Source of the DNA: Pseudomonadota bacterium
Lineage (GTDB): Bacteria > Pseudomonadota > Alphaproteobacteria > Rhodobacterales > Rhodobacteraceae
Assembly: GCA_020161655.1 (NCBI GenBank)
Contig: JAIUPC010000007.1
Location: forward strand, 124,001-188,000
DNA length: 64,000 bases
Direction of reading: 5' to 3'
The translations under genes were made by a program, and so were the position numbers. This document shows positions 773-38,729 of the stretch, one piece after another; positions within the stretch are counted from its first letter, which is position 1; the number at the start of each line of letters is the position of its first letter. The notes beneath the pieces were generated by a model that was not told the origin of the DNA, did no database searches, and worked only from the letters and a program-made list of their open reading frames with translations.

Positions 773-1162
773 TTAAAGCACGGTCACGGTGATGAGGGTC
801 AGGATCACCGACCCGAAGATGCAGCCCCAGCCGAGCTTTTCCGCCGTCGGAATGTCGAGGCCACGGCCGCTGTCGAAGTAGAGATGCCGAAGCCCGGCAA
901 GGAAGTGGTACCAGACCGCCCAGATCGAGCCGAGGAACACCAGCTTGCCGAACCACGACCGGACCACGGCATCGGCAAAGGCGAAATGGTCCGCGCTGGT
1001 CGCTGCGGCGAGCAGCCACCAGACGATCAGCACTGCCGCGACAATCAGCGCGTTACCGGTGATCCGCGTCAGGATCGAGGTCATCGAGGTCAGTTGCGGG
1101 CGGTAGTAAGGCCCGATCATGAAGGGCGACAGCGGGCGCTTGCCCCGGTTCACATCAGACAT
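773..1162 (-). CDS. sdhC: Succinate dehydrogenase cytochrome b556 subunit
   Basis: Cytochrome b subunit of complex II. The 129-residue protein begins with the RPLSP segment, followed by a SILTRITG quinone-site motif near residues 29-36 and the HFLAGLRHLYFD region that carries the haem-ligand histidine. Three transmembrane helices are evident. The ATG at 1162 follows a good ribosome-binding site (GGGGAG); the longer frame starting at 1249 would add a basic, non-conserved extension. It is first in sdhCDA(B), with its own 225-base upstream gap that contains a GTGATCAC doublet. Confidence 0.95.
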   Translation of the reverse strand: MSDVNRGKRPLSPFMIGPYYRPQLTSMTSILTRITGNALIVAAVLIVWWLLAAATSADHFAFADAVVRSWFGKLVFLGSIWAVWYHFLAGLRHLYFDSGRGLDIPTAEKLGWGCIFGSVILTLITVTVL

Positions 1163-1306
1163 GAACTCTCCCCTGACTTCCGCGCCGCCGGTCGTGTTGC
1201 CGGGAGGGCGCCGCTGGCTTTTCATGCCCCCAATTCGCGCCCGTGTCACGCTGCGAATGCCCCAAATCCGGCATTCCTGGGGTTGTTAGCGAAAAACCTG
1301 ACATTT

Positions 1307-1335
1307 GTGATCACGACTTTTTCCGCTGTGATCAC
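1307..1335. promoter_or_regulatory. GTGATCAC doublet upstream of sdhC
   Basis: Two perfect GTGATCAC palindromes at 1307-1314 and 1328-1335, starts 21 bp apart (two helical turns), with a 13-base spacer holding a run of T. They lie about 145-173 bases upstream of the sdhC start, in the only sizeable gap of this minus-strand gene run. The same doublet with identical spacing occurs upstream of sucC. The binding protein is not known from the sequence. Confidence 0.7.
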
Positions 1336-1387
1336 GGAATTTGCTGCAACTGCACATATCCTGTGCCGCCTGCGCGATTCGGAAGGA

Positions 1388-2416
1388 TCACACCGGCATC
1401 AGCGCCCAGTAGTCGAGGTCAAGGAGCACTTCCGGCAGATATTTCCCGTCCACGCCCTTCAGCACGAACTCTCCTGTCCCGTGCTTCACCGCCACCAGCC
1501 TGAGGCGGATCGCCCCCACACCCGGCGCAGCGGTCTCGGCCTTGTCCAGCACTTCCGACCAGGCCCGCACCGTATCGCCAGCAAAACAGGGATTGGCATG
1601 GGCGCCCGCGTTCAGCGCGACGATCATCTGCGCATTGGCCAGACCGTTGAAGGAAAGCGCGCGGACAAGCGAGATCACATGGCCGCCGTAGATCAGACGC
1701 CGCCCGTCCTCGCGGTTGGTCGCGTCGAAATGCACCTTGGCGGTGTTCTGCCAGAGCCTTGTGGCGAGCATATGCTCGGCCTCCTCGACGGTCACACCAT
1801 CGACATGGTCGATCTTTTCGCCCAAGGCATAGTCGCCCCAGCAATGCGGCTCTCCGGCAAGGGTGAAATCATACTTGGAGAAATCCAACCCTTCGGGCAC
1901 CACGAGGTCGCCCGCAGCCACGGATTTCTTCAGTTCCGGAACAATCGCCTCCGGTGCGGGCGTCGCGCGGTTCTTCCGCACCATGACCCAGCGGACATAT
2001 TCCAGCACGATCTCGTTGCGCTGGTTCAACCCGCGTGTCCGCACATAGACGACGCCTGACTTGCCGTTGGAATTCTCCTTCAGCCCGATCACCTCGGACT
2101 CTGACCGAAGCGTATCCCCCGGCCAGACCGGCTTCAGCCAGCGGCCCTCGGCATAGCCGAGATTGGCGATGGCATTGAGCGAGATATCGGGCACCGTCTT
2201 GCCGAACACGGTATGGAAGGCGATGAGATCATCCATCGGCGCAGCGGGAAGCCCCGAGGCGCGGGCAAACTCGTCCGACGAGTAAAGCGCATGGCGGGCC
2301 GGATAAAGCGCATGGTAGAGCGCCCGCTCCCCGCCCGAAACGGTGCGCGGCACGGCGTGGGCGATCACCTCGCCAAGGCGGTAGTCCTCGAAAAATCGGC
2401 CCGGATTGGTCTTCAT
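1388..2416 (-). CDS. mch: Mesaconyl-CoA hydratase
   Basis: MaoC-like hydratase of 342 residues that interconverts mesaconyl-C1-CoA and beta-methylmalyl-CoA in the ethylmalonyl-CoA pathway for acetyl-CoA assimilation. The protein begins with the FFEDYRLGE segment and shows two hot-dog-like halves, including the PVWPGDTLRSESEV turn typical of MaoC folds. Length matches the R. sphaeroides enzyme as I remember it. It is co-directional with mcl2, which acts next in the same pathway, and with sdhCDA downstream. RBS (GAGGA) precedes the ATG at 2416. Confidence 0.9.
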   Translation of the reverse strand: MKTNPGRFFEDYRLGEVIAHAVPRTVSGGERALYHALYPARHALYSSDEFARASGLPAAPMDDLIAFHTVFGKTVPDISLNAIANLGYAEGRWLKPVWPGDTLRSESEVIGLKENSNGKSGVVYVRTRGLNQRNEIVLEYVRWVMVRKNRATPAPEAIVPELKKSVAAGDLVVPEGLDFSKYDFTLAGEPHCWGDYALGEKIDHVDGVTVEEAEHMLATRLWQNTAKVHFDATNREDGRRLIYGGHVISLVRALSFNGLANAQMIVALNAGAHANPCFAGDTVRAWSEVLDKAETAAPGVGAIRLRLVAVKHGTGEFVLKGVDGKYLPEVLLDLDYWALMPV

Positions 2417-2427
2417 TCTGTCCTCGT

Positions 2428-2457
2428 CTGCAGGATGGGCACATTGCCCATCCTACG
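2428..2457. repeat. 30-base palindromic repeat, copy 1
   Basis: Near-palindrome in which GGATGGGCA and TGCCCATCC form the arms. An almost identical copy in the opposite orientation lies at 15827-15857. Here it sits between the DUF1737 gene and mch and its end supplies the TAG stop of the DUF1737 gene (2453-2455). It is able to form a hairpin in the transcript between two genes of the same operon. Confidence 0.8.
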
Positions 2458-2656
2458 CATCGCTCAAACTCACCTCGGGCGAATAGTCCCCCGGCACGTC
2501 CTTCACCACCGCCTGCCCGCAGCGCATCACGCCCCGCGCTGCATCATGCGCATAGGTCGGCCCGCCATGGAGCATCCAGCCCTTGTTCAGCGCCGCCGTC
2601 ACCTTGTGACAAAAGGCCGCCGTGTCGTCATCGCTCAGGAACCGGTAGAGCTTCAT
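2453..2656 (-). CDS. DUF1737-type small protein
   Basis: Small protein of 67 residues starting MKLYRFL, with the KGWMLHGGPTY segment that I associate with the DUF1737 family of unknown function. Its ATG overlaps the TGA of the nnrU-like gene by four bases, so translation is probably coupled. It lies 36 bases upstream of mch in the mcl2-nnrU-DUF1737-mch run. The stop codon is provided by a palindromic repeat. Function unknown; conserved company with mch suggests, but does not prove, a link to the same metabolism. Confidence 0.8.
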   Translation of the reverse strand: MKLYRFLSDDDTAAFCHKVTAALNKGWMLHGGPTYAHDAARGVMRCGQAVVKDVPGDYSPEVSLSDA

Positions 2657-3210
2657 CCGTAGGTCCCGACGAACGGGCTGTAGCCTAACCAGCTGTGGAT
2701 GCCGGCGATCACCGCATAGACGACGAGCGAGATGACCAGGTTGATCGCATCGCCGCGCAGGGGGCCGGGCGCCGGACGCTTCCAGCCTTCCCGCATGTTG
2801 ATGAGCGCCATCGACGCCAGCGCCCACAGCCCGAGCCAGCCGAAGAGCACGATCGAGGCCATGTCGCCGTTGACCAAGAGGTGCGCGACGGCCCAGACCA
2901 CGACGCCCGCCAGCATCGGGTGGCGCAGCATCGACTTCACGCGGCCCTTGCTGTGCGGCACGCCGACAAGGAAGACCGCGATCAGCATCAGAAGGTTGTT
3001 GAGATGCCCCATCCCCGGCAGGGGCGTGTAGACCGGGTCGATCTCGGCGCGCCGGTAGCCGATCACCATCAGGATCACGGCGGCGAGCGACAGGACCGTC
3101 ACCAGCATCTTGCCCGGGCCTTCGCCAAGGGCGGCCCGCGCCCCCGGCGCCACCCGCTTGAAGAGATGGGATAGGGTCCAGAGGATCAGGCCCAGGATCA
3201 GGATCGGCAT
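2653..3210 (-). CDS. NnrU family integral membrane protein
   Basis: Polytopic membrane protein of 185 residues with about five hydrophobic segments and the HPMLAGVVVWAVAHLL motif region typical of the NnrU family. NnrU was named from nitric-oxide-related loci, but the biochemical role is unknown, and homologues often lie outside denitrification clusters. It sits 39 bases after mcl2 and overlaps the DUF1737 gene by four bases, so it belongs to this operon. The start at 3210 has a GGGAG ribosome-binding site. Confidence 0.85.
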   Translation of the reverse strand: MPILILGLILWTLSHLFKRVAPGARAALGEGPGKMLVTVLSLAAVILMVIGYRRAEIDPVYTPLPGMGHLNNLLMLIAVFLVGVPHSKGRVKSMLRHPMLAGVVVWAVAHLLVNGDMASIVLFGWLGLWALASMALINMREGWKRPAPGPLRGDAINLVISLVVYAVIAGIHSWLGYSPFVGTYG

Positions 3211-3249
3211 GTCGGCACTCCCATTCGCAATTTCGCGCGCGAGTTTGGC

Positions 3250-4107
3250 TTATTTTGCCAAGGCCGCAATAGCTTCCGCGCGGGCGATTGTCTGGCGTGC
3301 CGTGGCGACATGCAGGTTTTCGACGATGCGGCCGTCGACGACCGCCACGCCCTGCCCCGCTGCCTGCGCCTCATCGAAGGCCGCGATCTGGCGCGTCGCG
3401 AGGTCGATCTCGGCGCCCGAGGGCGCATAGGCCGCATTGGCGATCTCAAGCTGCGCCGGGTGGATCAGGGTCTTGCCGTCAAAGCCCATGTCGCGGCCCT
3501 GTTCGCATTCGGCCTTGAGGCCCGCCTCATCCTTGAACGCGTTGTAGACGCCGTCGATGATGATCCTTCCATGCGCCTTGGCCGCCAGAAGGCAAAGGCC
3601 AAGCCCGGTCAGAAGCGGCTCGCGGTCGGGGCGGAAGCGGGTGTTGAGGTCCTTGGCAAGGTCGTTGGTGCCCATCACCATGCCGGCAAGCCGCGGATGG
3701 GCGGCGATGGACGCCGCGTTCAGCATGCCAAGCGGCGTCTCCATCATCGCCCAAAGGGGCTGCTTCGGCGCCAGCGCCGCGACCTTGTCGAGATCGGCGG
3801 CAGAGCCGACCTTGGGGATCAGGAGGGCGTCGATTTTCGCCCCGGCAAAGGCCGCAATGTCGTCCCGGCCCCATTCCGTATCAAGCCCGTTGACCCGCAC
3901 GATCCGCGCCCGCCCGCCGAAGTCCTGGCTTTCCAGAACGCGCGCAAGAAGCGCCCGTGCCGCCGGCTTTTCCTCGGCCGCCACGGCATCCTCAAGGTCG
4001 AAGATGATCGCATCCGCCGGCAGATCGCGCGCCTTCTCCAGCGCCCGCTCTTTCGAGCCGGGGATGTAGAGGACAGAGCGGAAAGGGCGCAGGCGGTCAT
4101 CTGCCAT
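3250..4107 (-). CDS. mcl2: HpcH/HpaI-family (3S)-malyl-CoA thioesterase / citryl-lyase-like protein
   Basis: CitE-like TIM-barrel protein of 285 residues. The SVLYIPGS start and the FDLEDAV segment (residues 36-42, with the metal-binding acidic pair Glu39-Asp40) are diagnostic, and GTNDLAKDL follows in the C-terminal half. By length and neighbours it matches Mcl2, the (3S)-malyl-CoA thioesterase of the ethylmalonyl-CoA pathway in R. sphaeroides, rather than the longer malyl-CoA lyase Mcl1 (about 318 residues). A malyl/citryl-CoA lyase activity cannot be excluded from sequence alone. GAGGAGA precedes the ATG. Confidence 0.83.
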   Translation of the reverse strand: MADDRLRPFRSVLYIPGSKERALEKARDLPADAIIFDLEDAVAAEEKPAARALLARVLESQDFGGRARIVRVNGLDTEWGRDDIAAFAGAKIDALLIPKVGSAADLDKVAALAPKQPLWAMMETPLGMLNAASIAAHPRLAGMVMGTNDLAKDLNTRFRPDREPLLTGLGLCLLAAKAHGRIIIDGVYNAFKDEAGLKAECEQGRDMGFDGKTLIHPAQLEIANAAYAPSGAEIDLATRQIAAFDEAQAAGQGVAVVDGRIVENLHVATARQTIARAEAIAALAK

Positions 4108-4265
4108 CGGATTCTCCTCGCAACATTATTTCGCCAGTGACCACATTTCCGGCATATTCGGCAAGCCCCATTTTTCCGCAGCGCAGCGAAAACTTTCTGC
4201 GCGCGCCACATGGAGGGTTTCTTGAAAGGCTTCCGGCAGGGTTGCCTCAATCTTCAGGAGGCCCC

Positions 4266-4406
4266 ATGCAACGCGATCTCTTCGGACTTTCCCTTGGCTT
4301 CGTGGCCCTGATTCTTCTCACCACCCATGCCAGCCATCAAAGCTTCAGCTTCCCGTCGCGGCTTCCCACAGCAAGCGCAGCGACACCGCAAGAAGCGCCC
4401 AGGTGA
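4266..4406 (+). CDS. Very small protein, signal-peptide-like; possibly truncated
   Basis: Frame of 46 codons with a perfect AGGAGG five bases before the ATG. Residues 5-20 are hydrophobic and end in THASH, like a secretion signal; the remainder (SFSFPSRLPTASAAT) shows no domain. The last 62 bases lie inside the 3' end of the opposite TSUP gene. I recall longer small secreted proteins in this family of bacteria that start like this, so this may be the 5' remnant of such a gene. The strong ribosome-binding site is the main evidence. Confidence 0.4.
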   Translation: MQRDLFGLSLGFVALILLTTHASHQSFSFPSRLPTASAATPQEAPR

Positions 4407-5091
4407 CAAGCCGGAAGAAGAGCTTCTCCGGCAGGACCCGAACCAGCCAGACGCCTGCGAAGACCGCAAGCGAGGCCGGCACCATCAGCGCCGCCGCGAT
4501 CTTGAGGTCGCGGAAGGTCAGGGTCCCGAGCGCCCAGTAGGGAATGAGCTTGATGGCGTTCACATAGGCGAAAAGCACGGTGGAGGTGCCGGCAAAGACC
4601 GCCTTTTCCAGCTTCAGCGGCAGGACATAGACCTGATAGGGCGGCGCGCCGGCATGGCTGACGAAGCTGGTGAAGCCGGTCAGCGTGCCCCAGAAGATGC
4701 CGGGGCCGACCTCGGCCCGCCTCGCCGGTGCCTCCGGCCCACGCCTGAGAAGAAGCCTGAGCGCAAAGCTCGCGCCAATGACCCCGATCAGCCCGGTCAC
4801 CAGCCGCTCCGGCACGAAGGCCGCCGTGGCCCATCCCAGCGCCACGCCAAGCGTCGCCGCAGGGGCAAGGATCGCCAGCACCCGCCGGTCAAAGGCATGG
4901 CGGTAAGCGTAAAGCCCGAACATGTCCGAGACGACATAGACCGGCAGCAGAAGCCCCGCCGCCGCGACCGGATGCATGACGAGCGCAAGGACCGGCACCC
5001 CCAGCATGCCCACCACCGGCAGCCCGCCCTTGCCCATGCCGACAAGGCCGGCGGCAACGACAGCGAGAATCCAGAACGTTGTCCCTTCCAT
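4345..5091 (-). CDS. TSUP (TauE/SafE) family membrane permease
   Basis: Integral membrane protein of 248 residues with about seven or eight hydrophobic helices, starting with the glycine-rich GLVGMGKGGLPVVGML motif characteristic of TauE/SafE (TSUP) transporters, thought to move sulfite, organosulfonates or other anions. The longer frame to 5226 would run into the mdh promoter; the ATG at 5091 gives the usual family length and puts the first conserved motif at the N-terminus. It is divergent from mdh. Substrate cannot be read from the sequence. Confidence 0.85.
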   Translation of the reverse strand: MEGTTFWILAVVAAGLVGMGKGGLPVVGMLGVPVLALVMHPVAAAGLLLPVYVVSDMFGLYAYRHAFDRRVLAILAPAATLGVALGWATAAFVPERLVTGLIGVIGASFALRLLLRRGPEAPARRAEVGPGIFWGTLTGFTSFVSHAGAPPYQVYVLPLKLEKAVFAGTSTVLFAYVNAIKLIPYWALGTLTFRDLKIAAALMVPASLAVFAGVWLVRVLPEKLFFRLVTWALLAVSLRLLWEAATGS

Positions 5092-5113
5092 GCCCGCTCG
5101 TGCACCCCGCCTG

Positions 5114-5129
5114 CCGTTATCGTTAACGG
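5114..5129. promoter_or_regulatory. LacI-type operator-like palindrome upstream of mdh
   Basis: CCGTTATCGTTAACGG, 15 of 16 positions symmetric around a central CG, the arrangement seen in LacI-family operators. It lies between the divergent TSUP gene and mdh, about 122-137 bases before the mdh start. CceR, a LacI-family regulator of central carbon genes in R. sphaeroides, is a possible binder; that link is inference. Confidence 0.5.
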
Positions 5130-5211
5130 CATACCAAAGTACGCCGAAACCGCAAGCGCGGCCCCTTCGCCGCATTGCAGCGCCCTTGCGCGACGGCCCG
5201 CGAAGCTTTAA

Positions 5212-6213
<1,002 letters not shown>

Positions 6214-6222
6214 GCGGGCGAC

Positions 6223-8118
6223 ATGCCCGGACACGCAACCGGCGGGGGCCGGACAGTCCCTTACCTGAACGCGATCGTCGTGCCGCCGGCGGCACGACGC
6301 CGCCCGGGACGGGTTCTGCCGATGGCGGTCATCGACCGCACGGGCGAATCCGTCGCCGCTGCTGCCTGTGCCACCCACCGGCTGAGCAGCGCCTCCTACC
6401 GGCCGGACCCGTCATTGCTCGCCGGGGCCGAACGGCTTGGCGGAACATGGCTCTGGGGCGGCCTCTTTTCACACCATTTCGGCCACCAGATCACCCGCTC
6501 GCTCGGCCGCCTCGCCGGCCTCGCGGAACTGGCCGACATTGACGGCATTCTCTTCGCGCAGCTTGACCGCCGCGCCGCGACCGCCGCAAACACGGCGCTC
6601 TTCCGCCGCCTTCTCGACGGGCTCGGCATCAGCCAACCCGTTCACGTGGCCGCGACGCCGACCGAGGTCGAACGGCTGCATATCGGCCCGGACCTCTTCG
6701 GCGAACAGACCGACTGCATTGCGGCGCCAGCCTATGTCGACTGGGCGCAGCGCCAGTTCCTGCCTGACGCGCCCCGGCCCGTCCCCGGAAGCCGCCTTTA
6801 CGTCACCCGCAGCCGCCTTGATCCTGCGCTCGGGCGCATAATTTGCGAAGACCTCCTTGAAGAGAACCTTGCCCGCCACGGCTACGACATCTTCGCCCCC
6901 GAGGCGCACAGCATTCCCGACCAGCTCCGCCGCTATGCTGAAGCTGAAACCATCGTCACGACCGACGGATCGCACGGCCATCTCATCGCTTTCGCCCGCC
7001 AGTCCGGCCAGCGCGTCGCGATGATCGCGCGTCGGCAGGATGCGCCGGTCAATCTCGTCAATCATCTGGAAAGCTTCGGCGCCGGCCTATCCGACGCCGA
7101 ACTTCACTATCTCAGCGTTCTCAGGACCGAATGGTGGCCACGGGAGCGGGCCGACAACCGCTCGCTCGGGGAGATCGACTTCGCCGCACTCCGGCGTGAA
7201 CTGGCGAATTGCGGCGCGATCGCATCCGATGCTAGCATCCCATGGATCGTCCCAAGCGAAGCTGAACTGGAAGAATCCAAGGCGCGCGGACTACGGACGG
7301 GCGAGCAGCTGATCCCGGCAGAAGAACGCCCCGCGTTTCTCGCCGAACTCCGCAAGAGGCGAGGAATGACCGCAGATCCAAGCATGACGGCGCCCGTCCT
7401 GGACCCGGTCCCGGCGATCGACGGACTGCGCTATTTTCGCATGCTGTCGCGGCTCCACGGGCTGCTGAAGCCGGAATGGTATCTTGAGATCGGCACCTTC
7501 ACCGGCAAGAGCCTTGCCCTCGCCCAGGGCAATTACGTCGCCGTCGATCCCGAATTCCGCATCGAGCATCCGATCGTCAACGGCCGCGGCCGCGAGATGC
7601 TTCTGGTCCAGAAGACCAGCGACGATTTCTTCGCCTCCGACTTCCTCCGCCGCAACCGCATCGCCTTCAACCTGGCGTTTCTCGACGGGCTCCATCTCTT
7701 CGAGGCGCTGCTGCGCGACTTCATCAACACCGAAAAGGCGATGGACCCCGGCGGCGTGATCCTTCTGCACGACTGCTGCCCGACCACGCGGCGGATGGCC
7801 GAACGCGAGCGCCCCAAGGGGCTTTGGACCGGCGATGTCTGGAAGACCCTGCTGATCCTCCTGCGCCACCGTCCGGATCTGAAGATCGAGGTGGCGAATG
7901 CCGCGCCCACCGGCCTTGTGGTGATCAGCAATCTCGATCCGAAGAACCGCACGCTCGGCAAGGTCTACGACAAGGCCGTGGCCGAGTATTCGTCCCTGTC
8001 GCTCGATGGCCTGCCGGGCGGGGTCGGCGGGCTCTACCGCCATTTCGACCTGAAGGCGCCGGAGGCGGTCCTCGCCGGATTGGGCGCGGCCGGCAAGGCG
8101 ATTCTGCCGGCCGAGTGA
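6223..8118 (+). CDS. GT61-like glycosyltransferase fused to a class I methyltransferase
   Basis: Protein of 631 residues with two parts. Residues about 60-275 resemble the GT61/DUF563 family: HHFGHQITRSLGRL, RLYVTRSR near residue 191 and a VTTDGSHGHLIAFA segment that matches the family's conserved C-terminal block. Residues about 395-600 look like a Methyltransf_24-type SAM-dependent methyltransferase, with LEIGTFTGKS near residue 422 and HDCCPTTRRMA near 516. The start lies only nine bases after mdh and has a weak ribosome-binding site, so translation may depend on mdh. A role in surface glycan assembly is inferred; acceptor unknown. Confidence 0.72.
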   Translation: MPGHATGGGRTVPYLNAIVVPPAARRRPGRVLPMAVIDRTGESVAAAACATHRLSSASYRPDPSLLAGAERLGGTWLWGGLFSHHFGHQITRSLGRLAGLAELADIDGILFAQLDRRAATAANTALFRRLLDGLGISQPVHVAATPTEVERLHIGPDLFGEQTDCIAAPAYVDWAQRQFLPDAPRPVPGSRLYVTRSRLDPALGRIICEDLLEENLARHGYDIFAPEAHSIPDQLRRYAEAETIVTTDGSHGHLIAFARQSGQRVAMIARRQDAPVNLVNHLESFGAGLSDAELHYLSVLRTEWWPRERADNRSLGEIDFAALRRELANCGAIASDASIPWIVPSEAELEESKARGLRTGEQLIPAEERPAFLAELRKRRGMTADPSMTAPVLDPVPAIDGLRYFRMLSRLHGLLKPEWYLEIGTFTGKSLALAQGNYVAVDPEFRIEHPIVNGRGREMLLVQKTSDDFFASDFLRRNRIAFNLAFLDGLHLFEALLRDFINTEKAMDPGGVILLHDCCPTTRRMAERERPKGLWTGDVWKTLLILLRHRPDLKIEVANAAPTGLVVISNLDPKNRTLGKVYDKAVAEYSSLSLDGLPGGVGGLYRHFDLKAPEAVLAGLGAAGKAILPAE

Positions 8119-8133
8119 CGGCCCCGGCAAAAT

Positions 8134-8162
8134 GTGATCACGCAATTTTTGGCCGTGATCAC
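8134..8162. promoter_or_regulatory. GTGATCAC doublet upstream of sucC
   Basis: Two perfect GTGATCAC palindromes at 8134-8141 and 8155-8162 with starts 21 bp apart and a T-rich 13-base spacer, the same layout as at 1307-1335 before sdhC. They lie about 108-136 bases upstream of sucC in the 151-base gap after the GT61 fusion gene, implying that sucC has its own promoter here. The cognate regulator is not identified. Confidence 0.7.
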
Positions 8163-8269
8163 AAATCCGCCTATTTCCGCCTTTCGCATGTTTTTTTCGC
8201 ATTTATCGTTTCGCCTCAGCGATCCGTTGTGCCATGACCGGCGCAATCCTAGCGAAACGGGGATCAGCG

Positions 8270-9463
8270 ATGAACATCCACGAATATCAGGCCAAGGCCC
8301 TCCTGCGCAGCTACGGCGCCCCGGTCTCCGACGGCCGCCCGGTCCTGAAGGCCGAAGAGGCGAAGACGGCGGCGGGCGAGATGGACGGCCCCCTCTGGGT
8401 CGTGAAGGCGCAGATCCACGCCGGCGGCCGCGGCAAGGGCAAGTTCAAGGAAGCGGAGGCCGGCGAGAAAGGCGGCGTCCGGCTGGCGAAATCGGTGGAA
8501 GAGGCGGCGGCGCTCGCCAAGCAGATGCTGGGCCGCACGCTCGTCACCCACCAGACCGGCCCCGCCGGCAAGCAGGTCAACCGCATCTATATCGAGGACG
8601 GCAGCGACATCGCGCGCGAGCTTTACCTCGCGCTGCTGGTGGATCGCCAAACGAGCCGCATCGCCTTTGTCTCATCGACCGAGGGCGGCATGGACATCGA
8701 GGAAGTGGCGCATAACACGCCCGAAAAGATCCTGACCTTCTCGGTCGATCCCGCCTCGGGCCTTTCGGATTTCCACGGCCGCCGCGTCGCCTTCGCGCTG
8801 GGGCTTGAAGGCAATCAGGTCAAGCAATGCGTGGCGCTCATCAAGACGCTCTACCGTCTCTTCGTCGAGAAGGACATGGAGATGCTTGAGATCAACCCGC
8901 TGATCGTCGGCAAGGACGGCAACCTCAAGTGCCTCGACGCCAAGATGGGCTTCGACGGCAACGCCATCTACCGCCACCCCGATATTGCCGCGCTGAGGGA
9001 TGAGACCGAGGAAGACCCGAAGGAACTCGCGGCCTCGAAGTTCGACCTGAACTACATCGCGCTGGATGGAGAGATCGGCTGCATGGTCAACGGCGCCGGC
9101 CTTGCCATGGCGACGATGGACATCATCAAGCTTTACGGGGCGGAACCCGCCAACTTCCTCGACGTCGGCGGCGGCGCCACCAAGGAAAAGGTGACGGAAG
9201 CCTTCAAGATCATCACCTCGGACCCGAACGTCAAAGGCATCCTCGTCAACATCTTCGGCGGCATCATGCGCTGCGACATCATCGCCGAAGGCATCGTGGC
9301 GGCGGTCAAGGAAGTGGGCCTCAAGGTGCCGCTGGTGGTCCGGCTCGAAGGCACCAACGTCGAGCTTGGCAAGAAGATCATCAACGAAAGCGGCCTCAAC
9401 GTGATCGCGGCGGATGATCTGAAAGACGGCGCCGAGAAGATCGTGAAGGCCGTCAAAGGTTAA
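8270..9463 (+). CDS. sucC: Succinyl-CoA synthetase beta subunit
   Basis: ADP/GDP-forming succinate-CoA ligase beta subunit, 397 residues, the normal length. It starts [12 protein letters not shown], carries the ATP-grasp segment [16 protein letters not shown], and near the C-terminus [14 protein letters not shown] and GTNVELGK. The ATG at 8270, preceded by GGGGATC, fits the conserved N-terminus; the upstream in-frame ATG at 8234 adds 12 unlikely residues. It forms the alpha2beta2 or alpha-beta enzyme with SucD, 71 bases downstream. Confidence 0.97.
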
Positions 9464-9534: not shown

Positions 9535-10419
9535 ATGTCCGTACTCGTCGACAAGAACACCAAGGTCATCTGCCAGGGCCTCACCGGCAGTCAGGGCACC
9601 TTCCACACCGAACAGGCCATCGCCTACGGCACCCGCATGATGGGCGGCGTGACGCCCGGCAAGGGTGGCACCACGCATATCGGCCTGCCGGTCTACAATT
9701 CGGTGCATGAGGCCAAGGCGATGACCGGCGCCAATGCCACCGTCATCTACGTGCCGCCGCCCTTCGCGGCGGACAGTATCCTTGAGGCGATCGACGCCGA
9801 GATGCCGGTGATCGTCGCGATCACCGAGGGCATCCCGGTTCTTGACATGATGAAGGTGAAGCGCGCGCTCGAAGGGTCGAAATCCACTCTCATCGGCCCG
9901 AACTGCCCCGGCATCATGACCCCCGGCGAATGCAAGATCGGCATCATGCCCGGCAACATCTTCAAGCGCGGCTCGGTCGGCGTCGTCTCCCGCTCGGGCA
10001 CGCTGACCTATGAGGCCGTGAAGCAGACCTCGGACGTGGGCCTCGGCCAGTCCTCCGCCGTCGGCATCGGCGGCGACCCGATCAAGGGCACCGAACATAT
10101 CGACGTCCTCGAATGGTTCCTTGCCGATGATGAGACCGAGAGCATCATCATGATCGGTGAGATCGGCGGTTCCGCCGAGGAAGAAGCCGCCCAGTTCCTG
10201 AAGGATGAGGCAAAGCGCGGGCGCAAGAAGCCGGTCGCGGGCTTCATCGCGGGCCGCACCGCGCCGAAGGGCCGCCGCATGGGCCATGCCGGCGCCATCG
10301 TCGCGGGCGGCAAGGGCGATGCCGAAAGCAAGATCGAGGCGATGAAATCCGCCGGTATCATCGTCGCCGACAGCCCGGCAACGCTGGGCGAAGCGGTTCT
10401 GAAGGCGATCAAGGGGTAA
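9535..10419 (+). CDS. sucD: Succinyl-CoA synthetase alpha subunit
   Basis: Alpha subunit of succinate-CoA ligase, 294 residues. The N-terminal CoA-binding Rossmann region ([17 protein letters not shown]) and the phosphohistidine loop [15 protein letters not shown] near the C-terminus are present, along with [12 protein letters not shown]. It pairs with SucC upstream to make ATP or GTP from succinyl-CoA in the TCA cycle. GGAGAACACC precedes the ATG, overlapping the downstream flank of the inverted repeat. A hairpin follows the stop. Confidence 0.97.
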
Positions 10420-11283: not shown

Positions 11284-14250
11284 ATGACCGACCAATCCCC
11301 CAACGACCAATTCGCCGCCTCGTCCTTCCTGCAGGGCCACAACGCGGAATATGTCGAACAGCTTTACGCCCGCTACGCCGCCGACCCCTCGGCGGTCGAT
11401 CAAAGCTGGGCCGCCTTCTTCCGCTCGCTCGGCGACAGCGAAACCACGGTCCGCAAGGAAGCGCAGGGCGCATCCTGGGGCCGGGCCGATTGGCCGCCCA
11501 TGCCGTCGGACGACCTCACTTCGGCGCTGACCGGCGAATGGCCGCAGGCGAAAGAGGTCAAGGGCGCGGCCGACAAGATCAAGGCCAAGGCCACTGAGGC
11601 GGGCGTCGCCGTCTCCGAAGACCAGATCAAGCGTGCCGTCCTCGATTCTATCCGCGCCCTCATGATCATCCGCGCCTACCGGATCAGGGGCCACCTCGTC
11701 GCCGATCTCGACCCCCTGGGCATGCGCGAGGAAAACCCGCATCCCGAGCTTGACCCGGCGAGCTACGGCTTCACCGAAGCCGACATGGACCGGCCGATCT
11801 TCATCGACAATGTCCTCGGCCTCACCCATGCCTCGATGCGGCAGATCCTGGAGATCGTGAAGCGCACCTATTGCGGCACCTTCGCGCTGCAATACATGCA
11901 TATTTCCGACCCCGCGCAGGCCGCCTGGCTGAAGGAGCGGATCGAGGGCTACGGCAAGGAAATCACCTTCACCCGTGAAGGCCGCCGCGCCATCCTCAAC
12001 AAGCTGGTCGAGGCCGAAGGCTTCGAGAAGTTCCTCCATGTCAAGTACATGGGCACCAAGCGCTTCGGCCTGGACGGCGCCGAGGCGCTGATCCCGGCGA
12101 TGGAACAGATCATCAAGCGCGGTGGCGGGCTTGGCGTGAAGGACATCGTCATCGGCATGCCGCACCGCGGCCGGCTCTCGGTTCTCGCCAATGTGCTGAT
12201 GAAGCCCTACCGCGCCATCTTCAACGAGTTCCAGGGCGGCAGCTTCAAGCCCGAGGATGTCGACGGCTCCGGCGACGTGAAATACCACCTCGGCGCCTCC
12301 TCGGACCGGACCTTCGACGAAAACACCGTCCACCTCGGCCTGACCGCCAACCCCTCGCACCTTGAGGCGGTGGACCCCGTGGTTCTCGGCAAGGTCCGCG
12401 CCAAGCAGGACCAGCTCTCGGATCAGACCGAACGCCGCGCCGTGATGCCGATCCTCCTTCACGGCGACGCGGCCTTTGCCGGCCAGGGCGTCGTCGCGGA
12501 ATGCTTCGGTCTTTCGGGCCTTCGTGGCCACCGCACCGGCGGCACCATCCATATCGTCGTGAACAACCAGATCGGCTTCACCACCGCGCCGCACTTCTCG
12601 CGCTCCTCGCCCTACCCCACCGACATCGCCCTGATGGTCGAGGCGCCGATCTTCCACGTCAACGGCGACGACCCCGAAGCCGTGGTCCACGCCGCCAGGG
12701 TCGCGACCGAGTTCCGCCAGATGTTCGGCAAGGACGCCGTCATCGACATCTTCTGCTACCGCCGCTTCGGTCACAACGAAGGCGACGAGCCGATGTTCAC
12801 CAACCCGGCGATGTACAAGACGATCAAGACCCACAAGACCACGCTCCAGCTTTATACCGAGCGTCTGGTCAAGGACGGCCTGATCCCGGAAGGCGAGATC
12901 GAGGATATGAAGGCCGCCTTCCAGGCCCATCTGAACGAGGAATTCGAGGTCGGCAAGAACTACAAGCCGAACAAGGCCGACTGGCTTGATGGCCGCTGGT
13001 CGCATCTCGACCGCGAGGGCGAGGAATATACCCCCGGCCAGACCGCGATCACCGCCCAGACCATGGCTGAGGTCGGCACCGCGCTGACCCGCGCGCCGAA
13101 GGACTTCGACCTCCACAAGACCGTGGCGCGCCTCCTAGAGGCCAAGCAGCAGATGTTCCAGACCGGCAAGGGCTTCGACTGGGCCACCGCCGAGGCGCTG
13201 GCCTTCGGCTCGCTCCTGACCGAAGGCTACCCGGTCCGCCTCTCTGGCCAGGACTGCACCCGCGGCACCTTCTCGCAGCGCCATTCCGCCTTCGTCGACC
13301 AGACGACCGAGGAACGCCATTACCCCCTGAACCACATCAAACCCGGTCAGGCGCGCTACGAGGCCATCGACTCGATGCTCTCGGAATACGCGGTCCTCGG
13401 CTTCGAATACGGCTACTCGCTGGCCGAACCGAACGCGCTCACCATGTGGGAGGCGCAGTTCGGCGACTTCGCCAATGGCGCGCAGATCATGTTCGACCAG
13501 TTCGTCTCTTCAGGTGAATCGAAGTGGCTGAGGATGTCGGGCCTCGTCTGCCTCCTGCCGCACGGCTTCGAAGGCCAGGGGCCGGAACATTCCTCGGCAA
13601 GGCTCGAACGCTTCCTGCAGATGTGCGCGCAGGACAACTGGATCGTCGCCAACTGCTCGACCCCGGCGAACTATTTCCACGCGCTCCGCCGGCAGCTGCA
13701 CCGCTCGTTCCGCAAGCCCCTCGTGCTGATGACGCCGAAATCGCTTCTGCGTCACCCGCTCTGCGTCTCGGATGCCGATGATTTCACCACCGGCTCCGCC
13801 TTCCACCGCGTCCTCTGGGACGATGCGCAGAAGGGCCATTCCGAGACGAAGCTTGTCGCCGACAAGAAGATCAAGCGCGTGGTGATCTCCTCCGGGAAGG
13901 TCTATTTCGACCTTCTGGCCGAACGCGACAATCGCGGGCTGGACGATGTCTATCTCCTCCGTCTCGAACAGTTCTACCCCTTCCCGGCGCAGTCGCTGGT
14001 CAAGGAGCTTGAACGCTTCAAGCAGGCCGAGATCGTCTGGTGCCAGGAAGAGCCGAAGAACCAGGGCGCCTGGTTCTTCATCGAGCCGAACATCGAATGG
14101 GTACTCGGCCGCATCGGCGCCAAGGCGAAGCGCCCGCTCTATGTCGGCCGCTCCGCCTCTGCCTCGCCGGCCACCGGCCTCGCCTCGAAGCACAAGGCCG
14201 AACAGGCAGCGCTGGTGAATGATGCGCTGACGGTCGGAGGCACCGGCTGA
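11284..14250 (+). CDS. sucA: 2-oxoglutarate dehydrogenase E1 component
   Basis: Thiamine-diphosphate-dependent E1 of the 2-oxoglutarate dehydrogenase complex, 988 residues, full length. The N-terminus ([15 protein letters not shown]) is the conserved E2-contacting helix region; [15 protein letters not shown] begins near residue 290 and [12 protein letters not shown] near 395, followed by VNNQIGFTT, all E1o signatures. It decarboxylates 2-oxoglutarate and passes the succinyl group to SucB. Its TGA overlaps the sucB ATG by one base. Its own ribosome-binding site is weak. Confidence 0.98.
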
Positions 14251-15815
14251 TGGCCATCGAGGTTCGCGTCCCGACGCTTGGCGAAAGCGTGGCCGAGGCC
14301 ACCGTCGCCACCTGGTTCAAGAAGCCGGGCGACATGGTCGCGGTCGACGAGATGCTTTGCGAGCTTGAGACCGACAAGGTCACGGTCGAGGTCCCCTCGC
14401 CCGCGGCCGGTCGCCTCGGCGAGATCCTGGCACCCGAAGGAACGACCGTCGGCGTGAATGCGTTGCTCGCACAGATAGCCGAGGCCGGCAACGCCGGCCC
14501 TGAAGAGACAACCCCGAAAAAAGGCGCGCCCCCCGCGCCGCAAGCCGATGAGGGCAAGATGGCTGGCAAGAATGTTGACGTGATGGTTCCCACCCTCGGC
14601 GAAAGCGTGACCGAGGCGACGGTCTCGACCTGGTTCAAGAAGGTCGGCGACCAGGTCAATGTGGACGAGATGCTCTGTGAGCTTGAGACCGACAAGGTCT
14701 CGGTCGAGGTGCCCTCGCCCGTCGCCGGTGTGCTGGCAGAGATCATCGCGCCCGAAGGGGCCACCGTCGACGCCAAGGCCCGCCTCGCCGTCGTCACCGA
14801 AGGCGCCACCGGCGCCGCCCCGGCCCCCGCCGACACCGCGAAGTCGAAGGCCGCCGAGGCTGTCGGCTCCCCCGGTGCAGGGCCCGAGACGGTGAAGGAA
14901 CGCAAGGATGTCGAGGATGCGCCCTCGGCCAGGAAGGCGATGGCCGAGGCCGGGCTTTCCGCCGACCAGGTCGCAGGCTCGGGCCGCGATGGCCGCATCA
15001 TGAAGGAAGACGTGGCGAAAGCCGCCTCCGCCCCTGCTGCGGCCCCTGCGCCGGTCGTCACCGCCGCCCCGGCCCCCGCCACCGCCCCCCGCGCCCCGGT
15101 CCCGGCCGAGGATGCCGCACGCGAGGAACGGGTGAAGATGACACGCCTCCGCGCCACCATCGCCCGCCGCCTGAAGGACGCGCAGAACACCGCCGCCATG
15201 CTCACCACCTATAACGAGGTGGACATGAAGGGCATCATGGACCTTCGGAACGAATACAAGGACGCCTTCGAGAAGAAGCACGGCGTCAAGCTCGGCTTCA
15301 TGTCCTTCTTCGTGAAGGCCTGCTGCCACGCGCTGAAGGAAGTGCCCGAGGTCAATGCCGAGATCGACGGCGGCGATGTCGTCTACAAGAATTTCGTCCA
15401 TATGGGCGTCGCCGTCGGCACGCCGTCGGGCCTCGTCGTGCCGGTCGTCCGCGACGCCGACCAGATGAGCTTCGCCGCCATCGAGAAGAAGATCGCCGAG
15501 CTTGGCATCCGCGCCCGCGACGGCAAGCTTTCGATGGCCGAAATGCAGGGCGGCACCTTCACCATCTCCAACGGCGGTGTCTACGGAAGCCTCATGTCCT
15601 CGCCGATCCTGAACCCGCCGCAATCGGGCATCCTCGGCATGCACAAGATCCAGGACCGCCCCGTTGTGGTCGGTGGCCAGATCGTGATCCGCCCGATGAT
15701 GTATCTGGCGCTCAGCTACGATCACCGGATCGTCGACGGCAAGGGGGCGGTGACGTTCCTTGTCCGGGTGAAAGAGGCGCTGGAGGACCCGCGCCGGCTC
15801 CTGATGGACCTCTGA
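14250..15815 (+). CDS. sucB: Dihydrolipoyl succinyltransferase E2 with two lipoyl domains
   Basis: E2 core of the 2-oxoglutarate dehydrogenase complex, 521 residues. Two lipoyl domains are present, at about residues 2-78 and 109-184, each with the ETDKV lipoylation lysine motif; most E2o enzymes have one. A proline/alanine linker, an E3-binding domain (about 227-262, [16 protein letters not shown]) and the catalytic domain with [11 protein letters not shown] near the C-terminus follow. The start overlaps the sucA stop, so translation is coupled. The paired lipoyl domains are similar enough to suggest internal duplication. Confidence 0.96.
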
Positions 15816-16747: not shown

Positions 16748-18136
16748 ATGGCCGAGTTTGATGTGATCGTGATCGGCGCCGGTCCCGGCGGCTATGTCTC
16801 AGCCATCCGCTGCGCCCAGCTTGGCCTGAAGACCGCCTGTGTGGAAGGGCGCGAGACGCTGGGCGGCACCTGCCTCAACGTCGGCTGCATCCCGTCGAAG
16901 GCGCTCCTCCATGCCAGCCACATGCTCCATGAGACGCATGAGAATTTCGAGAAGATGGGCCTGATGGGCGCAGCTCCGAAGGTCGACTGGACCAAGATGC
17001 AATCCTACAAGACCGATGTCGTCGGCCAGAACACCAAGGGCATCGAATTTCTCTTCAAGAAGAACAAGATAACCTGGCTGAAGGGCTGGGGTTCGATCCC
17101 TGCGGCGGGTCAGGTGAAGGTGGGCGATGAAGTGCATACGGCGAAGGCCATCGTCATCGCCACCGGCTCCGAATCCTCCTCGCTTCCCGGCGTGACCGTA
17201 GACGAAAAGACCGTCGTTACCTCCACCGGCGCGCTGGTGCTGCCGAAGATCCCGAAGTCGATGGTGGTGATTGGCGCCGGCGTCATCGGGCTTGAGATGG
17301 GATCGGTCTATGCCCGCCTCGGCACCGAAGTGACGGTCGTCGAATACCTTGACGCCATCACCCCCGGCATGGACGGCGAGGTGCAGAAAGTGTTCCAGAG
17401 ACTCCTTTCCCGCCAAGGGCTTAAGTTCATCATGGGCGCCGCCGTCCAGGGCGTGAAGACCACGAAAGGCGGCAATACCGTCACCTACAAGCTCCGCAAG
17501 GACGACAGCGAGGCAACGCTTGAGGCCGAGGTCGTCCTCGTCGCCACCGGGCGCAAGCCCTATACCGACGGCCTTGGCCTTGAGGGGCTTGGCGTCGAGA
17601 TGGAAAAGCGCGGCCAGGTCAGGATCGACGACCACTGGCAGACCAATGTGAAGGGCATCTATGCCATCGGCGATGCGGTCGTCGGCCCGATGCTTGCCCA
17701 CAAGGCCGAGGATGAGGGTATGGCCGTCGCCGCCGTCATCGCCGGAAAGCACGGCCACGTTAACTATGGTGTAATCCCCGGCGTGATATACACCGCGCCC
17801 GAAGTAGCTTCGGTCGGCAAGACCGAAGAGCAGCTGAAGGAAGAGGGCCGCGCCTACAAGGTGGGCAAGTTCCCCTTCATGGGCAATGCGCGGGCGAAGG
17901 CGGTGTTTCAGGGCGACGGCTTCGTCAAGATTCTCGCCGATAAAGAGACTGACCGGGTGCTCGGCTGCCATATCATCGGGCCGGGCGCCGGCGACCTGAT
18001 CCATGAGGTCTGCGTGGCGATGGAGTTCGGCGCCGCCGCCGAGGACATCGCCCTGACCTGCCACGCCCATCCGACCTATTCGGAAGCGGTGCGCGAGGCG
18101 GCCCTCGCCTGCGGCGACGGCGCGATCCACGCCTGA
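16748..18136 (+). CDS. lpd: Dihydrolipoyl dehydrogenase (E3)
   Basis: FAD-dependent disulfide oxidoreductase of 462 residues that reoxidises the lipoyl groups of SucB with NAD. FAD motif GAGPGG is at residues 10-15, the redox-active Cys42 and Cys47 lie in GGTCLNVGC, the NAD-binding [10 protein letters not shown] follows near residue 180, and [10 protein letters not shown] near the C-terminus holds the catalytic histidine. GAAGGAG precedes the ATG. It ends the mdh-suc-lpd run; in this position it is most probably the E3 of the 2-oxoglutarate dehydrogenase complex. Confidence 0.97.
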
Positions 18137-18298: not shown

Positions 18299-18949
18299 CT
18301 ACGACAGAAGATGCCGCAGCCCCTGCGTCACGTCGGTGCGCACGGCAAGCCGCAGCGCCGGTTCGTCCCCGGCCTTCAGCGCCGCAAGGATCATCCGGTG
18401 CGTCTGCGGCGGCTCGCTGCGCTTCAGCCGCGAATAGACCGCGCGCATGGTCGGACCCAACTGCAGCCAGACGGTTTCGGCGATGGCCAGCATCGCCGGG
18501 GCCTGCGCCCGAAGGTAAAGCGTCCGGTGGAAGTCGAGGTTGGTGCGGATATAGGCCACCGCATCATGCTTCACCACGGCTTCCGCATTGGCCATGTTGA
18601 TCGCCTGCAAGCGTTCGATCAGCGCCAGATGGGCGCGCGGCAGGGCGCGGGTCGCAAGCTCCGTCTCGATGAGGGCGCGGACGGTCGCCAGTTCCTCGAT
18701 CCGCTCGTTCGAAAGATCCGGTGTCGTCACCCGGCCCGAGGCGGAAAGCGTCAGCGCCCCCTCGGCGGCAAGCCGCCGCAAAGCCTCGCGCGCCGGGGTC
18801 ATCGAGACGCCGAAGGTCTTCGCCAGCCCGCGCACCGTCAGCGACTGGCCGGGCGGAAGCTCGCCATGCATGATCTGCTGCCGGAGCGTCCGGTAGACCC
18901 GGTCATGGGCGGCAAGCCCGGCGTCGGAGGGGCGGTTCTGCATCAGCAT
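18299..18949 (-). CDS. GntR family (FCD domain) transcriptional regulator
   Basis: Regulator of 216 residues with a winged helix N-terminus (residues about 14-80; RTLRQQIMHGELPPGQSLTVRGLAKTFGVS split by the usual GntR pattern, with TPAREALRRLAAEG) and an all-helical FCD ligand domain (about 90-205) containing the metal-site pattern NLDFHRTLY. It is convergent with lpd. Targets are unknown; FCD regulators usually respond to organic acids. The ATG at 18949 is followed by a second in-frame ATG two codons later, either of which may be used. Confidence 0.88.
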   Translation of the reverse strand: MLMQNRPSDAGLAAHDRVYRTLRQQIMHGELPPGQSLTVRGLAKTFGVSMTPAREALRRLAAEGALTLSASGRVTTPDLSNERIEELATVRALIETELATRALPRAHLALIERLQAINMANAEAVVKHDAVAYIRTNLDFHRTLYLRAQAPAMLAIAETVWLQLGPTMRAVYSRLKRSEPPQTHRMILAALKAGDEPALRLAVRTDVTQGLRHLLS

Positions 18950-18993
18950 GGGGGATCAGAGGCGCATTTCCACGCCGCCGTCAATCTCCCCGC

Positions 18994-37752: not shown

Positions 37753-38729
37753 TCGGAAATCTCCTTGAGCGCGGGGCCGCCGTTGCGCAGCCGCCCGCCC
37801 GAAAGCACAAGGACCAGCGCACCAAGGGCGCCGGCCAGATAAAGGATGCCCTGCCAGGCGAGGCCCGAGGCGATGACATCGGGCGCGTTGGCACCAAACG
37901 GCACCAGCAGCGCGGCGAGCGAGCCTTCGCGCACGCCAAGCCCGCCGAGCGACAGCGGCAGCGTGGCGATGATCTTGGCAAGCGGCCAGGCGAAAAACCA
38001 GGCGGCGACGGGCACATGGACGCCCACCGGCTCCGCCAGCCGGATCGACAGCCAGATCAGGACCGACTGGATTGCGGCCGAAAGAACCAGCGCGAAGAGC
38101 AGCCTGAGCGGCCGCTTGGCCAGAGCCGAGAAGGAATCGGCCAGCCTCAACCCAAGTCCCCGCGCGGGGAGGCCCGGCCAGCGGGCCCAAAGCCAGCGCG
38201 CCACCGCGGGAAAGGCGAACAGCGCCGCCGCCGCAAGGGCGAGGACGGCGAGCGCCACCGGCACCGCCATGCCGTGATCACCTCCAGCGACCGCAGCAGG
38301 CAGCAGGACAAGGCCGATGAGCATGAGGCAGGCGAGCGCGGCAAGGTCGATCATTCGGTCACCGACCGCCGCCGCCGCCACCTTCGGCCCGTCGCGAAGT
38401 GCAGCGTGGGCGAGGCCGGCGCGCACCGCATCGCCGCCGGCCGCGCCCGGCAGGCAGAGGTTGGCGGCCAGCCCGGCAAAGTGGGCGCGGAGCGCCAGCG
38501 GGAAGGCGACCGCGCGATCCATCAGCATCCACCATTTCGCCGCTGCCGCCACATGGCAGACGAGGAACGCCATGAGCACCGACAGGAACAAGGGCCAGCT
38601 CAACCGGGTGAAGCCCTGAAGGATCGCTTCCTGCGGCAGGAACCAGAAGATGAACGCCAGCGTCAGCCCTGACCCTGCGGCCCGAAGCAGCCATTTCCGC
38701 GTTGCACTTCGGGCCAGCGCCAAGGTCAC
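37749..38729 (-). CDS. Lysylphosphatidylglycerol-synthase-type membrane protein (UPF0104)
   Basis: Membrane protein of 326 residues with about eight helices and the SLGGLGVREG motif near residue 265 that defines the LPG_synthase_TM / COG0392 family. These proteins flip or act on lipids; here a lipid-linked sugar intermediate is a plausible cargo. It overlaps both neighbours by four bases. Confidence 0.85.
   Translation of the reverse strand: MTLALARSATRKWLLRAAGSGLTLAFIFWFLPQEAILQGFTRLSWPLFLSVLMAFLVCHVAAAAKWWMLMDRAVAFPLALRAHFAGLAANLCLPGAAGGDAVRAGLAHAALRDGPKVAAAAVGDRMIDLAALACLMLIGLVLLPAAVAGGDHGMAVPVALAVLALAAAALFAFPAVARWLWARWPGLPARGLGLRLADSFSALAKRPLRLLFALVLSAAIQSVLIWLSIRLAEPVGVHVPVAAWFFAWPLAKIIATLPLSLGGLGVREGSLAALLVPFGANAPDVIASGLAWQGILYLAGALGALVLVLSGGRLRNGGPALKEISE

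Follow-up and report, generated by a model that had tools for sequence, protein, structure and literature searches.

Why should two separate transcription units of the tricarboxylic acid (TCA) cycle in one bacterial genome carry the same pair of palindromes at the same spacing? The question is raised by a 64,000-nucleotide stretch from a member of the Rhodobacteraceae (assembly GCA_020161655.1, contig JAIUPC010000007.1, positions 124,001 to 188,000; hereafter the window), in which two copies of GTGATCAC precede sdhC and two more precede sucC. Our analysis indicates that these doublets are very probably binding sites of the regulator AkgR, and that an array of A/T-rich positions runs from each doublet towards the promoter in register with the boxes.

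Paired boxes before sdhC and sucC

The box is a short palindrome, and in both pairs the box starts are 21 base pairs (bp) apart. At sdhC the promoter-proximal box is found at 1307..1314 and the distal box at 1328..1335; at sucC the distal box lies at 8134..8141 and the promoter-proximal box at 8155..8162 (all four are matches to GTGATCAC, listed without a strand). The 13-bp spacers, GACTTTTTCCGCT and GCAATTTTTGGCC, each hold a run of five T. The doublets stand 144 bp from the sdhC start codon (1162-1160, minus strand) and 107 bp from that of sucC (8270). An initial annotation of the window had described two perfect doublets with starts 21 bp apart and a T-rich 13-base spacer, and had judged two such pairs very unlikely to arise by chance; both statements hold up, as the following counts show. 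A fifth copy of GTGATCAC in the window lies at 38274, inside long open reading frames (ORFs), and the five copies compare with a shuffle mean of 0.85 (standard deviation 1.02), none of 100 shuffles having reached five. The 4.08-megabase (Mb) genome contains 34 copies in total, and by our own arithmetic (34 squared divided by the genome length) about 0.0003 pairs at exactly 21 bp are expected, against two found. The pattern GTGATCAC-N13-GTGATCAC occurs before sdhC, before sucC and nowhere else in the genome, rather than at many unrelated places; allowing 8-18 bp or 2-32 bp between the boxes returns the same two doublets.

The bases flanking the boxes were also compared. In the aligned doublet sets described below, T precedes the distal box in 84% of sdhC and 98% of sucC sequences, and A follows the proximal box in 84% and 92%, respectively; the window's own sdhC doublet has C, not T, before its distal box. 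Thirty copies in the genome lie outside the doublets, and among the 15 of these that were printed (L128-L142) ten read GTGATCACC and none is preceded by T.

Spread of the doublet across genomes

Scanning a genome collection (84,980 species according to its description) for GTGATCAC-N13-GTGATCAC returned at least 120 stretches with at least 127 doublets. Among the 127 doublets listed, 101 precede sucC or sdhC, with 58 before sucC (95-149 bp from the start) and 43 before sdhC (113-204 bp from the start). Since the search pattern holds no gene information, this agreement on sdhC and sucC is independent evidence. The remaining 26 listed doublets lie elsewhere. Records that bear the names of unrelated organisms (actinobacteria, Bacteroidetes, archaea and others) account for 21 of them, and three of the five rhodobacterial ones are at the edge of their stretch.

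Close relatives share the pairing. At least one GTGATCAC pair, with 2-32 bp between the boxes, was found in 273 of 296 family genomes, most of them with two, and a reversed control pattern matched in one genome of the same search. Counted by eye, 65 of 75 listed pairs are at 21 bp and five at 20 bp, the rest being at 13, 18, 18, 27 and 31 bp. In a class-wide sample a pair at 19-22 bp was present in all six family genomes and in five of 371 others, and no sdhC or sucC lies beside the pair in those five.

Variants of the arrangement were seen in individual genomes. Of seven genomes drawn from those that have at least four pairs, two carry triplets of GTGATCAC, one in G122 (contig C8:374318-374367) with steps of 21 and 21 bp, that is two plus two helical turns, and one in G232 (contig C39:213291-213351) with steps of 32 and 21 bp, or three plus two turns. 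The 2.6-Mb family genome G233 has eleven pairs, two of them at 21 bp and the others at varied spacing and partly clustered (contigs C6 and C9), which perhaps reflects an expanded regulon. A third 21-bp doublet in G263 (contig C168, locus L298; boxes at 1501 and 1522) lies about 200 bp before an ORF that by eye resembles acetyl-CoA acetyltransferase, so a thiolase may also belong to the regulon. Outside the family, G421 (locus L264), one of the five class genomes just mentioned, has a 21-bp doublet with boxes at 992 and 1013 between ORFs that by eye look like a TonB receptor and a GntR protein, which suggests that this paired motif also serves further members of the GntR family.

A GntR/FCD regulator accompanies the doublet

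Which protein might read these boxes? Behind lpd, at 18299-18949 on the minus strand, the window encodes a protein with Pfam matches to GntR (63.1 bits) and FCD (58.5 bits), both over the cut-off. The genome has 15 FCD-domain matches, and this is the only one on the contig. A regulator gene beside sdhB, where the initial annotation had proposed to look, was rejected as a candidate, no FCD-type GntR gene being found there (GntR proteins without FCD were not sought). No NCBIfam match of the regulator reached the cut-off for a curated name; the best match to a solved structure by sequence is McbR of Escherichia coli (PDB 4p9f, E 1.2e-20). The residues N137, H141, H184 and D206 do not vary in an alignment of 35 orthologs. 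The metal site of FCD proteins generally consists of D plus three H, so the ligand pocket of this protein may be a variant.

We searched for the protein in 60 genomes, namely 37 doublet genomes with listed places and all 23 genomes without a pair. An ortholog was present in 37 of 37 doublet genomes (E at most 5.1e-76) and in three of the 23 without a perfect pair (G035, G139 and G258), giving a Fisher p of 4e-13 in a test that ignores relatedness. Upstream regions of 20 sucC and 19 sdhC genes were recovered from the pair-less genomes. Here G035 has a one-mismatch 21-bp doublet before sdhC and none before sucC, G258 has one before sucC and none before sdhC, and in G139 neither gene was found. 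In the genomes of this set that lack the ortholog, no pair with under three mismatches was seen upstream of sucC or sdhC. G248, without a perfect pair, gives a borderline match of 50% identity and has no doublet before sucC or sdhC. In G100 the regulator is found as split fragments in more than one frame (contig C56:33057-33643, 44-62% identity) and no doublet is left before either gene, a state that would fit the regulator and its sites having been lost together. In the class-wide sample, an ortholog (E at most 1.1e-95) and two pairs are present in each of the six family genomes; among the other 371, for which up to eight candidates per genome were scored, no match is better than E 2.1e-42. 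A tblastn search with 12 of the 15 FCD proteins found none of them in the 120 listed scan stretches and 29 further loci.

The literature offers a name. AkgR is reportedly RSP_0981 of Rhodobacter sphaeroides. In the passages available of PMC6365646, GTGATCAC is the motif tied to AkgR and AkgR is described as an activator; in those of PMC4344238 the GntR protein RSP_0981 is the predicted regulator of the genes for succinyl-CoA synthetase, succinate dehydrogenase and 2-oxoglutarate dehydrogenase. The 18299-18949 gene is thus probably akgR, judging by its Pfam domains, its co-occurrence with the doublet and the box upstream of its orthologs (see below). There is strong support for the earlier suggestion that complex II and the suc operon have a regulator dedicated to them, and AkgR, named there as a possible candidate, was very probably the right choice, given the published motif and predicted targets. 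As far as these sources go, regulator, targets and motif are essentially known from print; what the present analysis adds is the architecture.

A phased A/T array between doublet and promoter

We aligned 44 sdhC and 59 sucC upstream regions on the doublet, with the window included in each set. Mean pairwise identity between doublet and promoter is 0.31 for sdhC and 0.35 for sucC. In both sets A/T-rich positions recur near +30, +40, +50, +60 and +70, counted from the start of the distal box. From these family statistics and its own sequence, the window has one such array at 1250..1306 (minus strand), between the doublet and the predicted sdhC promoter, and another at 8163..8219 (plus strand), between the sucC doublet and the promoter region. 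The strength of the signal at 10.25 bp over +32 to +91, both sets together, is 6.63, against at most 1.93 in 1000 rotations, a procedure in which each sequence keeps its own periodicity and the register is broken. Upstream of the doublet the strength is much weaker at 1.56, a value that is above its own null (at most 1.12) and is due to the sucC set.

The same register was found in a fresh set of 36 sequences, all below 80% identity to every earlier one. This set leaves out eight of 44 loci without sdhC or sucC beside the pair (five class loci, and three with pairs at 27, 18 and 31 bp). Predicted peaks have an A/T fraction of 0.81 and troughs one of 0.31, the peak being the higher of the two in all 36 sequences. 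Measured per sequence as a ratio to shuffles, the power is 4.3 and 3.8 in the two doublet sets. In genomes that have no perfect doublet, the ratio before these genes is 1.1-1.4 (20 sucC and 19 sdhC, including G035 and G258), and the control ratio before maoC and sucA is 0.75-1.2, control loci having the gene start aligned and 160 bp available. Upstream of mdh in the scan loci, where there is no doublet, 10-bp A/T phasing is raised at -160 to -100 (ratio 2.4, 47 sequences).

To place the array relative to promoters, we scanned with a simple sigma-70-like matrix of our own choosing. In sdhC the best-scoring -35 candidate falls between +86 and +89 in 24 of 44 sequences, and in sucC at +76/+77 in 14 of 59, the single-position peaks being 9 and 8, respectively, against at most 5 in 30 shuffles. 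The two registers are about 11 bp, or one helical turn, apart. For sdhC the median score is 6.6 against 4.8 in shuffles. The window's predicted sdhC -35, GTGACA at 1244..1249 (minus strand, 4.8 bits), is at +86 and so within the main family cluster of +86 to +89, and the same matrix predicts the -10, CATGAA, at 1221-1226 (minus strand). A/T-rich in-phase subsites are present upstream of the predicted -35, as base composition only. If the sucC register is right, which we regard as tentative, the tracts at sucC would lie near -42, -52, -62, -72 and -82. A wedge model predicts that the stretch is moderately curved, by 48 and 38 degrees where the DNA upstream gives 23 and 21, with a mean z versus shuffles of 2.6 and 1.4.

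The regulator's own promoter

A GTGATCAC box also lies upstream of the start of the regulator gene in 19 of 30 orthologs, 18 of these having it within 11-19 bp, and with five more orthologs the count becomes 23 of 35. In a typical ortholog TTGAC precedes the start codon by about 35 bp and the box follows 18 bp further on; so placed, the box would overlap the -10 of a predicted leaderless promoter. The combination TTGAC-N13-GTGATCAC occurs in 18 of 296 loci, and all 18 are loci of the regulator gene. In the window TTGAC at 18980..18984 (minus strand) is the predicted -35 of the regulator's own promoter, which is probably leaderless, with the start codon about 30 bp downstream. A single box over the promoter in most orthologs examined would suggest negative autoregulation, by autorepression; the box is missing in this genome.

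A model for joint activation and its alternatives

How might these elements work together? We propose that each GTGATCAC would be bound by one dimer of the GntR/FCD regulator from 18299-18949, the probable AkgR, so that two dimers would sit 21 bp, two helical turns, apart and far upstream of the promoters, with box centres estimated near -88/-109 at sucC and -99/-120 at sdhC. The 21- and 20-bp spacings would fit two dimers on one DNA face. The AkgR dimers would activate the sdh and suc operons together, and the A/T-rich minor grooves, about one per helical turn toward the promoter in fixed register with the boxes, would most likely dock the alpha C-terminal domains of RNA polymerase and/or give the DNA a bend that brings AkgR to the polymerase. 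As a whole we give this explanation a probability of about 0.8. Among its parts, binding of AkgR to the doublets is very likely from the evidence above, and a role of the A/T array in activation has roughly even odds. The dimers, one-face binding, promoter positions, autorepression and the alpha C-terminal domain or bending mechanism are what we infer; the activator role is taken from print (the available passages of PMC6365646) and not from the present analysis. A tentative extension, which we think possible at well under even odds, is a composite activation element of two AkgR dimers at 20-21 bp and about five in-phase A/T grooves, which would allow promoters to lie whole turns apart (sdhC one turn further than sucC), with selection acting on helical face and groove shape and not on base identity, and with curved DNA wrapping AkgR onto RNA polymerase.

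This explanation would link a known regulator to a precisely defined arrangement of DNA sites, carried by most of the family genomes sampled at two operons of core energy metabolism. The array offers a clear case of conserved DNA phase rather than sequence, identity being 31% and 35% and the doublet sets yet keeping a 10-bp register, and activator action by an FCD-type GntR protein becomes testable by half- or whole-turn shifts of the sites.

Several points weigh against the explanation. The autoregulatory box is absent from the regulator's own gene here and in the congener G009, and 12 of the 35 orthologs are without it. The upstream regions of mdh (1.3-2.4) and citE (1.7-2.2), which have no doublet, show weaker 10-bp A/T phasing. 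The -35 register of sucC is weak, its median score being 5.8 where shuffles give 5.5, and in the window's own sucC the best score falls elsewhere, hence our calling it tentative. There are two alpha C-terminal domains per polymerase, and five tracts exceed that need. The co-occurrence test covered one of the genome's 15 FCD matches. The protein was likened to RSP_0981 via motif and targets, and, judging by the RSP numbers, the gene of R. sphaeroides has its place near sdh, not behind lpd as in the window.

The alternative that survives best concerns the array alone, which might be unrelated to AkgR and reflect ordinary promoter curvature or a nucleoid-protein site. The phasing at mdh and citE and the moderate predicted curvature are consistent with this. 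However, two unrelated promoters and all the fresh sequences keep a phase that is tied to the doublet, and ratios are just 1.1-1.4 before the same genes without a perfect doublet. Since weaker phasing is not unique to these promoters, the array is distinctive by its strength and its doublet register. We consider an AkgR-independent origin a serious possibility, if the less probable one.

It is also conceivable that the protein on the doublet is another GntR paralog (the one encoded on contig C18, with 43% identity, is an example) or an unrelated protein, and that 18299-18949 merely co-occurs with the doublet. The genome has 14 other FCD matches beside the one taken through the co-occurrence test, the G421 doublet outside the family precedes another GntR-like gene, and the available passages of PMC6365646 propose a second GntR protein on GTGATCAC in Pseudomonas, so paralogs may share the motif. 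Against a paralog stand the near-perfect co-occurrence of 18299-18949 with the doublet and the box at its own promoter in most orthologs; moreover, paralog-level matches (about 35-43% identity) are listed for only part of the doublet genomes, and also for the doublet-less G049, G106 and G174. We regard this reading as unlikely.

The doublet could instead be a repressor site, at which AkgR or the paired dimers block or modulate both operons; repression is the role of many GntR/FCD proteins, and the box in front of the regulator gene is operator-like. The doublets, however, lie 95-204 bp upstream of start codons among the matches listed, probably upstream of the -35 and thus in an activator-like position, and AkgR is called an activator in the part of PMC6365646 available. 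We rate repression slightly below a paralogous binder.

Chance or a sequence artefact, such as common valine-isoleucine-threonine codons, could draw on the single copies elsewhere that mostly read GTGATCACC and on the unassigned doublets listed, most of them in records under the names of unrelated organisms, and is rejected as having a negligible probability in view of just two doublets in the genome, their mostly sucC/sdhC placement in the scan, the co-occurrence with the regulator, the pairs in 273 of 296 family genomes and the 0 of 100 window shuffles with five copies.

Genes around the doublets

The first gene of the sdh operon, sdhC, occupies 773..1162 on the minus strand and was identified from the ORF list and tblastn homologs (homologs in 19 of 23 genomes); sucC, at 8270..9463 on the plus strand, was identified from the ORF list and sucC homologs. 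Downstream of sucC follow ORFs read as sucD (9535-10419), sucA (11284-14250) and sucB (14250-15815), each named from position and translation only, and lpd (16748-18136), named by Pfam. Between mdh and sucC the ORF at 6223-8118 has matches to Glyco_transf_61 and Methyltransf_24. In ten scan loci a different family, reading like a glycosyltransferase, begins beside the doublet, and the stretch beside the sucC doublet is possibly an insertion hot spot.

Comparison with known systems

The literature searched yielded no printed account of a doublet with a fixed 21-bp spacing, of the autoregulatory box or of the phased A/T array in register with the doublet; the main mBio 2015 paper on AkgR was outside its coverage and may show part of this. 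The closest system is AkgR (RSP_0981) of R. sphaeroides, with which the present one shares the GntR family, the motif GTGATCAC and the predicted targets sucCD, sdh and the 2-oxoglutarate dehydrogenase genes. The 21-bp doublet, A/T array and autoregulatory box seen here differ from it in that they do not feature in the descriptions of its motif and targets, as far as these are available. PS417_07240, a GntR protein of the deoxyribonate genes in Pseudomonas simiae, is 32% identical to AkgR and is proposed to bind the GTGATCAC palindrome; its palindrome lies at -47 to -40 from the start codon, it belongs to sugar-acid catabolism and not to the TCA cycle, and no doublet is mentioned in the passages available (PMC6365646). 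McbR of E. coli is likewise a GntR-family regulator, but the similarity is at fold-family level, with no sign of shared targets.

The array itself is best compared with far-upstream (class I-like) activation and UP elements in E. coli, which similarly have a site upstream of the -35 and A/T-rich minor-groove subsites just upstream, those of UP elements being at -37 to -58 (available passages of PMC2613000). In contrast to UP elements, here about five in-phase tracts, known from sequence alone, stand in fixed register with a paired activator site.

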